Shown: one piece after another, positions 117 to 31,278 of the stretch
Layout: each line of letters begins with the position of its first letter
Position numbering within the stretch: the stretch's first letter is position 1
IMG/VR virus record: IMGVR_UViG_3300027985_000249
Location: 1-33,234 of that record
Source of the DNA: a virus
Length of the DNA stretch: 33,234 bases
Strand: one strand, 5' to 3'
Notes under the pieces: generated by a model
What the model was told of the DNA's origin: nothing
Database searches by the model: none
The model's input: only the letters and a program-made list of their open reading frames with translations
Translations under genes and position numbers: made by a program

Positions 117-410
117 CTATTTTTGATAAGGTCTGAATTTATATAATGGACATAATTTTGCAGAGCAATTTCTAACTTCCTCCTTGTCAAAGCATGAGCA
201 ATCTAAACACTTCGCTTTTATTGCCTGATTTCTCGTAGTTTTACCAGTGTACGAAAGGTAGAATAGTTTTTGAATGGTAGATGGTAGGGTAATAATTAAA
301 TTGTATTTTTTAGGCTCTACAGACGATAAACTCAATAAATCCAAATTAAACTTATCTTTACCATCTTTTATCATTTTTTGGCGTTCATCTTTGCTGATTT
401 TTGAAAACAT
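117..410 (-). CDS. Cys-rich small phage protein (zinc-binding motif)
   Basis: This is a 97-residue protein. The ATG at 410 is preferred over an upstream TTG because AGGGG lies seven bases before it. The C-terminal third carries KCLDCSCFDKEEVRNCS followed by CPLYKFRP, a cluster of six cysteines in the C-x2-C...C...C pattern common in small phage proteins near replication genes, probably binding zinc. The N-terminal half is charged and has no recognised domain. It ends eight bases before the start of the replication protein, so the two are co-transcribed. The 5' leader is unusually long and structured (411-612). Function is unknown. Confidence 0.8.
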   Translation of the reverse strand: MFSKISKDERQKMIKDGKDKFNLDLLSLSSVEPKKYNLIITLPSTIQKLFYLSYTGKTTRNQAIKAKCLDCSCFDKEEVRNCSAKLCPLYKFRPYQK

Positions 411-430
411 TATCAAACCCCTTTAAAAGA

Positions 431-467
431 AGAGGCCAGCCGACCTAGCATTGAAAAGCCAGCCTCT
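431..467 (-). terminator. Leader hairpin 1 (attenuator or terminator candidate), leftward strand
   Basis: Read leftward, AGAGGCTGGC (467-458) pairs with GCTGGCCTCT (440-431) over 10 bp, with two G-U pairs. It is followed by TCTTTT (430-425). The 17-base loop contains TGCTAGGTC. On the opposite strand the two wobbles become C/A mismatches, so the structure favours leftward RNA. It lies between the VRR-NUC gene and the start at 410, so it could end the nuclease message or attenuate the downstream replication genes. The T tract is short, so strength is uncertain. Confidence 0.5.
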
Positions 468-505
468 CTATTTTTACCCATTTCTGGGAATTGTGAATTT
501 TATGT

Positions 506-526
506 AATTGGTCTGCTAGGCCAATT
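506..526 (-). promoter_or_regulatory. Leader hairpin 2 (9-bp stem, triloop)
   Basis: AATTGGTCT (506-514) and AGGCCAATT (518-526) form a nine-pair inverted repeat around a 3-base loop; one pair is T/G on the plus strand and C/A on the minus strand. In leftward RNA the segment GGCCTAGCA can pair with TGCTAGGTC in the loop of the hairpin at 431-467, giving nine pairs with one wobble. That allows a loop-loop contact or alternative folds. A run of TGTGTGTGTG (527-536) follows on the plus strand. Role unknown; an RNA switch, an origin element or a protein-binding dyad are all possible. Confidence 0.45.
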
Positions 527-565
527 TGTGTGTGTGCATGTAATTTAGCACAAAAAAATAATTTG

Positions 566-594
566 TAAATATACTTTATAAAAAATACAGGCAA
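566..594 (-). promoter_or_regulatory. Candidate sigma-70-type promoter, leftward
   Basis: TTGCCT (594-589) and TATTTA (571-566) are separated by 17 bases, leftward. If used, transcription would begin around 560 and give a leader of about 150 bases containing both hairpins before the gene at 410. The -10 match is modest in an AT-rich stretch, so chance similarity is a real risk. Confidence 0.3.
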
Positions 595-612
595 GCATTT
601 TTCAGATAGTTT

Positions 613-6255: not shown

Positions 6256-7005
6256 TTAATCCTGTGTAAATGTTTTACCGTCTATGGTTAAAGTGTTATC
6301 TCTTATTACGGAAATTTCAACATTAAAATCCTTTCCATTAATTACAGTGATCATTCCGCAGCTTAACTGCCATGAGTCGTGCCCTTTGGCATATTCAAAT
6401 ACTTTCTTAGTTCTATCTCCAAGCCAACCCATCATGTACGCAGAGTAAATTGACCCATTTGCGCCAGTCCTATGAGCTACCTGCGCACGATGCGAGCAAC
6501 CGTAAATGAAACTAGCGTCTAACTTTCTCTCTAATGAAGTCATAGCGTGATTTTTACCATAAGATGGTGGAGAATGAACAGCGTATAAATTGCAATTTTC
6601 TACTTGGTAAACATCTTGATAATCGTGCCATTCAATATCCAAATCTTCTAAGTTAAAATACTTCTTAGGTGTAATCATATTATGAAATGGCTTCGCATTT
6701 GCCAGTATATAGCGTTCTATTCTGTTGCTATGATTGCCTTCAAGATAAACTATGTGTTGACGTTTGAACCTGTTTCTAAGCGAAATTAACCACTCTTTTA
6801 CATAGTCCATTTCATCTTGCAGAGACTCAATCACATCTGGATTTTTAGCTCCATGCATGGACACGTTATAAGCGTCTAGCAAATCTCCTAGTATTATTAT
6901 CCTATCAACATCTATTGACTCAAATGCTTGTAGGCATAACTCGACGGCATTTTTATCTTCATACGGACAATGTATGTCGCTTATTACACCAGTTTTTGTT
7001 ATCAT
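6256..7005 (-). CDS. Calcineurin-like metallophosphoesterase
   Basis: A 249-residue protein with the ordered metal-binding motifs of the superfamily: DIH (Asp10, His12), GDLLD (residues 40-44), GNHSNR (90-95), VHSPPSYGKNH (His near 144) and a GCSHRAQ element in place of the usual G-H-x-H (near 169). It probably hydrolyses a phosphoester with two metal ions; the substrate cannot be read from sequence. Phage versions are linked to DNA or RNA end processing. Its ATG overlaps the upstream lipoprotein stop (ATGA). Confidence 0.88.
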   Translation of the reverse strand: MITKTGVISDIHCPYEDKNAVELCLQAFESIDVDRIIILGDLLDAYNVSMHGAKNPDVIESLQDEMDYVKEWLISLRNRFKRQHIVYLEGNHSNRIERYILANAKPFHNMITPKKYFNLEDLDIEWHDYQDVYQVENCNLYAVHSPPSYGKNHAMTSLERKLDASFIYGCSHRAQVAHRTGANGSIYSAYMMGWLGDRTKKVFEYAKGHDSWQLSCGMITVINGKDFNVEISVIRDNTLTIDGKTFTQD

Positions 7006-7286: not shown

Positions 7287-7440
7287 TTTGAAGATCGCTA
7301 ACTTGTTTTTTAATCCTTGCATACTCAACCTTGCTTACAAAATAATCATTTACTATTTCAAGAGCAGGAACTATAAAAGAGTCGAATACTTTGTTAAATA
7401 GAAATAAAGCCAGCCGATACTTCCATGTACCGACTGACAA
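7237..7440 (-). CDS. Small hypothetical protein with unresolved start
   Basis: The frame from a TTG at 7440 gives 67 residues (GTWKYRLALFLFNKVFDSF, then a helical KVEYARIKKQVSDLQNAS). The TTG has no ribosome binding site, and the frame stays open upstream to 7509, reading IVEAIRKKAIGLLLSRFALS, which looks like real protein. No ATG, GTG or TTG exists in that extension, only ATA, ATT and ATC codons. The true start may be a rare codon, or the N-terminus may be broken. It sits between two membrane-linked genes, so a lysis-cluster role is plausible. Confidence 0.6.
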   Translation of the reverse strand: MSVGTWKYRLALFLFNKVFDSFIVPALEIVNDYFVSKVEYARIKKQVSDLQNASTINDVVTAVNNLD

Positions 7441-30160: not shown

Positions 30161-30452
30161 CGTCAACCTCAAGTAAATTATAATTAACCCATTTATTTGT
30201 ATATTCGTCTAGCTCCCATCCTTTGGTAATAAGCTCACTCTCCACTTGTGGGAACTTGTCAGTAAATCGTCTTAACCCCATCGCATGGGCTTGATGATGA
30301 TGCAGCCTACAGATGGACAGTAAGTTATCGTCAAGATCATGTCCACCACTACCAACTGACTTGATGTGATGAGGCTCTGCTTGCGTGTTGCATATTATGC
30401 ATTTTTTTGAATGGTATGATTGTAATAATGCCTTATTGATAATTCGTGCCAC
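30153..30452 (-). CDS. HNH family nuclease-like protein (DUF968/NinX-like)
   Basis: A 99-residue protein with a zinc-bound HNH core: CIICNTQAEPHHIKSVGSGG (C-x2-C and paired histidines), then NLLSICRLHHHQAHAMG. The C-terminal tail is a short helix plus WELDEYTNKWVNY. This size and the HHI...GGHD...NLLSICRLHH pattern are typical of small phage HNH proteins near recombination or packaging genes; many support packaging or recombination. The GTG start at 30452 has GAGG eight bases upstream. Confidence 0.85.
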   Translation of the reverse strand: MARIINKALLQSYHSKKCIICNTQAEPHHIKSVGSGGHDLDDNLLSICRLHHHQAHAMGLRRFTDKFPQVESELITKGWELDEYTNKWVNYNLLEVDDE

Positions 30453-30476
30453 AGGCTAACCTCACTGAGATAACCT

Positions 30477-30506
30477 ATTGTGACACGAAATTTTTTGTTA
30501 TGTCAA
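30477..30506 (-). promoter_or_regulatory. Candidate promoter before the HNH gene
   Basis: Leftward TTGACA (30506-30501), a perfect -35, is followed after 18 bases by CACAAT (30482-30477). It lies 24 bases before the GTG of the HNH gene, in the 55-base gap after the SPFH gene, and could start the packaging and head genes. The -10 is weak. Confidence 0.4.
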
Positions 30507-30507
30507 A

Positions 30508-31278
30508 TTAGTTGCCAAGATTTAACAAATTCATATTTTTATCTCCAAGCATGTAAACTGGAAGTACACCATCCCATTTTTCAATTGCATCAAGCAAAAT
30601 TATATCTTTATTTTTTGCGAGTGCCATCGCTTTCACCTGTATTGATTTAGCCTCGGCTTCAGCTTGCAATACTATCTGTTCTGCTTGTTCTTTAATTTGT
30701 ACCGTTCTATTCTGCTCTTCAATCGCCTTTTCTTTTGCTACAATTTTATTCTTTACTGCCGTTTCAAAATCATCATCGTAGTCAAAATTTGTAACTTCGA
30801 AAGATACGCAATTAATACCAGTTCCACTTAACTTATCGTCAATTATTTTTTTTATCTCTCTATTCGCCTCACCCCTAACTTGAACCAAATCAGTTGCTTT
30901 ATACTTTCCAAGAACGTCTTTAATGCTTGCCGTTACTCTTTGCGGTAAAATTACCTCTATAAAATTACTCCCTTGATTAATATACAATTCTGCTATTTTG
31001 TCAGATTCCGGTCTATAATTTACCTTGTATGCAACATCAATAATTTGATTATCTGATGAATATGCAGATAACTTATCCTCTTTTGTTTGCTCTTTGATGT
31101 TAATTTCTTTCATAGATGTCATAACTGGAGCAAAAAAATGTAAGCCAGATTTATACTCATCAAGCTCAACTTTCCCCATAGTACTCTTCACTCCCACGTT
31201 ACCATCAGAAATAACTTTGAAACCACATGATTGTAATAATACAGCCATTGAACAAATACTTAGTAACCTTAAAAACAT
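30508..31278 (-). CDS. SPFH/prohibitin-family lipoprotein
   Basis: A 256-residue membrane-linked protein. Signal peptide MFLRLLSICSMAVLLQSCG has a lipobox cysteine at residue 18. The SPFH body follows: a strand block with SDGNVGVKSTMGKVELDEYK, SGLHFFAPVMTSMKEINIKE, DVAYKVNYRPESDKIAEL, then a long coiled coil (KEKAIEEQNRTVQIKEQAEQ, then AEAEAKSIQVKAMALAKNKD). Prohibitin-like proteins build ring scaffolds on membranes; a lipid-anchored version would sit outside the inner membrane. Phages do carry such genes, with unknown purpose. AGGAG lies before the ATG. Confidence 0.85.
   Translation of the reverse strand: MFLRLLSICSMAVLLQSCGFKVISDGNVGVKSTMGKVELDEYKSGLHFFAPVMTSMKEINIKEQTKEDKLSAYSSDNQIIDVAYKVNYRPESDKIAELYINQGSNFIEVILPQRVTASIKDVLGKYKATDLVQVRGEANREIKKIIDDKLSGTGINCVSFEVTNFDYDDDFETAVKNKIVAKEKAIEEQNRTVQIKEQAEQIVLQAEAEAKSIQVKAMALAKNKDIILLDAIEKWDGVLPVYMLGDKNMNLLNLGN

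Follow-up and report, generated by a model that had tools for sequence, protein, structure and literature searches.

The window analyzed here is the 33,234-base virus record IMGVR_UViG_3300027985_000249, which belongs to an unclassified phage. Leftward (minus strand) from position 984, a gene for a VRR-NUC nuclease of 123 amino acids (613-984; Pfam PF08774, E = 8e-13; phrog_824, E = 7e-39) is followed by a gap, by the gene for a small Cys-rich protein of 97 amino acids (117-410, ATG at 410) and, a few bases on, by the start of a gene for a DnaD-like helicase loader (1-108; phrog_2514, E = 1.9e-7 for residues 1-36), of which the N terminus is present before the contig end truncates it. The preliminary description had placed a gap with two hairpins ahead of Cys-rich and replication genes, and this arrangement holds. 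The Cys-rich protein that precedes the loader carries the motif CxxC-x10-C-x4-CPLY, here in the form CLDC-x10-C-x4-CPLY (117-410, minus strand), and has a weak relative with a similar motif in the 595-kb uncultured phage LR756511 (54.5% identity over 33 amino acids, E = 4e-4). Also encoded leftward are the terminase small and large subunits (29917-29546 and 28417-27149), the major head protein (23948-23106) and a helicase-like protein (32902-32084). The rightward genes, among them those for Erf, a GH25 endolysin and SSB, begin near 1100. The phage that encodes this endolysin also encodes an SPFH/HflC-like protein with a lipoprotein-type signal (30508-31278, minus strand; phrog_200).

At the other end of the contig, the open reading frame 33234-32905 has a weak sole library match and is directly followed by the helicase gene; judged by its family, it looks like the final part of a related replication protein. 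Both contig ends (1-108 and 32905-33234, minus strand) look like parts of one DnaD-like loader gene, which suggests that the genome is circular and was cut inside this gene, perhaps with a short stretch missing; the join is one that we infer. If the contig ends meet, the operon would run from the Cys-rich gene through the loader to the helicase. Since the Cys-rich gene is so closely trailed by the loader start, the gap is likely to be a leader of replication genes, and 411-535 is best explained as the 5' leader of the phage's replication operon, or as an intercistronic leader within it.

At 542-569 (minus strand), the sequence TTTACA-16-TAAATT, whose second hexamer is preceded by TG, agrees with the consensus at 9 of 12 positions and may be a leftward promoter. 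It lies just upstream of the smaller hairpin (hairpin B) and would put the 5' end near 535. We treat it as a candidate only, because promoter-like matches are common in 1-1200 (11 sites versus 5.2 expected by chance); the promoter scan returned no rightward promoter-like site within the gap. The candidate -10 hexamer is overlapped by an inverted repeat, TGTGC-N10-GCACA (533-552), which is unique in the window and may be an operator.

The larger hairpin, hairpin A, combines a 12-bp stem with a 15-nt loop on the minus strand. About 6 nt separate it from the Cys-rich gene's ribosome-binding site, which follows downstream (AAAGGGG, 418-424, minus strand, as read from the sequence). Previously assigned to 431-467, hairpin A is present there, but its true span is 468-430, with 12 pairs of which four are G-U, two of these internal. 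As had been proposed, it folds better in leftward RNA (-18.1 kcal/mol, versus -10.4 kcal/mol rightward, a difference of 7.7), because the two internal G-U pairs turn into A-C mismatches on the plus strand. Of 300 dinucleotide-shuffled versions of the region, only one held a 44-nt hairpin as good as A, and A is one of the window's strongest hairpins. Another long hairpin (-21 kcal/mol) is found where an HNH endonuclease gene begins (30425-30492, minus strand). According to the pair probabilities, the sequence CCUCUU (430-435, minus strand) forms either the 3' arm of A or a cover of the ribosome-binding site, and the two pairings are exclusive.

Hairpin A might act in transcription attenuation, as an intrinsic terminator before the replication genes with the B sequence as antiterminator. 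Its GC-rich stem is followed by UUCUUUU, the sole terminator-like matches of the first 1200 bases fall here, and the exclusive pairings come in the right order. However, the tail after the full stem consists of four U only, and by the d'Aubenton-Carafa formula A scores -18, under the usual cut-off of zero for intrinsic terminators, compared with +9.6 for the hairpin at 7438-7409. The reading of hairpin A as a strong intrinsic terminator has little support, and on this comparison of scores we rate attenuation, an earlier suggestion, as quite unlikely. Of the strong hairpins that were scored, the one at 7409-7438 (minus strand), with 12 pairs and then a U-run, makes the best terminator candidate. 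Terminator and antiterminator folds are reportedly at work in the repC attenuator of plasmid pT181. The phage leader resembles it in having exclusive folds before a replication gene, but differs in that its terminator is weak and no countertranscript was found.

Hairpin B lies at 506-526 (minus strand), where it had been described; hairpin folding and shuffle comparison give it 6 pairs leftward and a 9-nt loop, CCUAGCAGA. On its own it has the lower energy in rightward RNA (-8.5, versus -4.5 leftward), a point absent from the preliminary description. The nine-base pairing previously noticed between the hairpins is also found (GGCCTAGCA at 522-514 and TGCTAGGTC at 450-442). It had been described as a contact between the loop of one hairpin and the stem of the other, whereas its core, CCTAGCA/TGCTAGG, sits in both loops and runs from loop to loop: CCUAGCA in loop B (514-520, minus strand) and UGCUAGG in loop A (444-450, minus strand) can form 7 Watson-Crick pairs, with a duplex energy of -9.7 kcal/mol. 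Hairpin pairs with loops sharing at least 7 Watson-Crick bases turned up in only 1 of 2000 shuffled versions of the region, a rarity that is somewhat flattering since the loop-match criterion was set after the finding was seen. Among 1320 stretches of the phage, such a pair occurs at one place, the A/B site itself, and nowhere else.

The rarity of these seven pairs, their uniqueness in the phage and their duplex energy speak for a kissing-loop complex, in which A and B would fold together and form, through their loops, a compact structure beside the ribosome-binding site that keeps the site open or binds a protein or an antisense RNA, in a manner somewhat like the repZ pseudoknot of IncI plasmids. 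By its pairing, the 7-base kiss is compatible with both hairpins at once, so that it need not be a switch, and it would favour the open state of the ribosome-binding site. Yet the same stretch is equally able to form an exclusive 11-pair helix, the value of -9.7 kcal/mol is a plain duplex energy, and an antisense promoter is not established. We regard a kissing complex as unlikely.

Two further pairs can lengthen the nine-base match to 11 (524-514 with 450-440), and this longer helix is part of a shut state in which CCUCUU (435-430) pairs with AAGGGG of the ribosome-binding site. For 535-395, nested folding, which cannot score the 7-base kiss, gives nearly equal energies for A plus B (-31.3) and for the shut state (-32.0). 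In computed growing transcripts, A plus B is favoured while the 3' end lies at 430-418, and the shut state takes over from 410 on. Computed ensembles spanning three 3' ends and four 5' ends differ with B: in RNAs without it (starting at 505 or later), the probability is 0.85-0.99 for hairpin A and 0.00-0.15 for a covered site, versus 0.08-0.60 and 0.39-0.92, varying with the chosen ends, in RNAs that contain it.

With the upstream 65 bases shuffled, 18 of 1000 sequences covered the site to the same or a greater degree. In a within-genome control, 3 of 43 other gene starts close about as much or more upon addition of their 65 upstream bases, and gene start 7005 is one other of 44 tested that shows a comparable helix exchange. 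Because of these shuffles and the similar closing at other gene starts, the switch is only suggestive, roughly at the 2-5% level, with controls that are only moderate. The fold of the full 202 nt is moderately unusual leftward (z = -2.1) and ordinary rightward (z = 0.0), and the 125-nt leader alone reaches a modest z of -1.6. Two exclusive folds, one of them covering the ribosome-binding site of the operon's first gene, are thus found in silico only. The preliminary reading is partly supported: its exclusive folds apply to the 11-pair helix but not necessarily to the kiss.

The best reading, plausible but unproven and put forward tentatively, is that of a bistable leader limiting translation of the replication operon. 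During transcription, hairpin B and then hairpin A would fold, leaving the ribosome-binding site free of A. Once the site is transcribed, the B sequence would pair with A at its loop and top, releasing CCUCUU to pair with AAGGGG and so reducing translation. Nascent RNA would then be translated and mature RNA shut; alternatively, a factor binding loop A or loop B may set the balance. The sequence elements are seen directly and the exclusive pairings come from computation; the effect on translation, its timing and any such ligand are, like the promoter, steps that we infer.

The bistable leader is supported by the return of A and the freeing of the site upon removal of B in the ensembles, by the order of events in growing transcripts, by the small share of random upstream sequences that cover the site equally and by the gene order, which puts 411-535 ahead of the DnaD-like loader. 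Speaking against it are the closeness of the two state energies, the preference of the kiss for the open state, the three other gene starts that lose similar or more openness, the helix exchange at 7005, the occurrence of the structure in no relative and the modest z-score of the whole leader. Should it work, RNA folding upstream of the helicase-loader operon would be one determinant of entry into replication of the phage DNA. At present the leader is a candidate that is well defined and testable, not an established element.

Our searches for relatives covered RNA families, phage records, viral contigs and genome contigs. None of the 4227 families of Rfam 15 matched the window at the gathering score, with chance-level matches only at E values up to 10, and none of 50,697 phages showed DNA similarity; no leader-bearing relative was found in the phage records, viral contigs or genome contigs searched, from which records very close to the window may be missing. 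Relatives of the VRR-NUC gene (18 loci, up to 58% identity) lack the gap, the Cys-rich gene and the hairpins downstream, and the 80 Erf loci have neither leader nor Cys-rich gene. Searches with the Cys-rich protein, the terminase and the helicase in viral contigs, and with the Cys-rich protein and the helicase in genome contigs, returned no relatives. Pattern searches with the arms of stem A gave 20 matches, in contigs mostly of higher G+C and otherwise unlike the leader, and the loop pair was matched 4 times, each time without hairpin A; all of these were discarded.

The lack of relatives, the other strong hairpins of the phage, the modest z-score and the similar fold changes at other gene starts would also fit an ordinary intergenic hairpin, serving as a processing signal or weak terminator, with a chance complementarity to a small nearby hairpin and no regulation. 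We find this somewhat doubtful, given that shuffles seldom reproduce the strength of A (1 in 300) or the loop match (1 in 2000). The gap also adjoins replication genes, its nine-base stretches are inverted repeats and 553-612 is rich in A+T, which could indicate an origin or a protein-binding site at the DNA level. However, the gap holds no iterons: three two-copy families of direct repeats over 380-1110 include none with two copies inside it, and no DnaA-box-like site occurs in 411-612 with one mismatch allowed. The origin element considered earlier therefore has little support, and we judge a DNA-level site of either kind highly improbable.

A bistable leader would parallel plasmid copy control. 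In the IncI/IncB plasmids, the repZ (repA) leader has a pseudoknot and an antisense Inc RNA. The reference list of PMC10724649 includes Asano and Mizobuchi 1998 for this leader and Novick 1989 for attenuators such as that of pT181 repC. The phage leader shares with it two hairpins, the 5' one of which pairs through its loop with a structure beside the ribosome-binding site of the replication gene, a feature seen here as 7-base complementarity only. The repZ system differs in its known leader peptide and antisense RNA, and the first gene of the phage operon encodes the Cys-rich protein, ahead of the helicase loader. The broader proposal is that translation of the replication operon in a tailed DNA phage is governed by a leader, kissing-loop or bistable, whose family is absent from Rfam and which is comparable to plasmid copy-control leaders; it strikes us as improbable. 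The leader of the maturation gene of phage MS2 is kinetically timed, open while nascent and shut at equilibrium by long-distance pairing. MS2 is an RNA phage and its leader has another fold, and the timing in the phage leader is computed only; the two are alike in being open when nascent and shut at equilibrium, with long-distance pairing that affects the ribosome-binding site.
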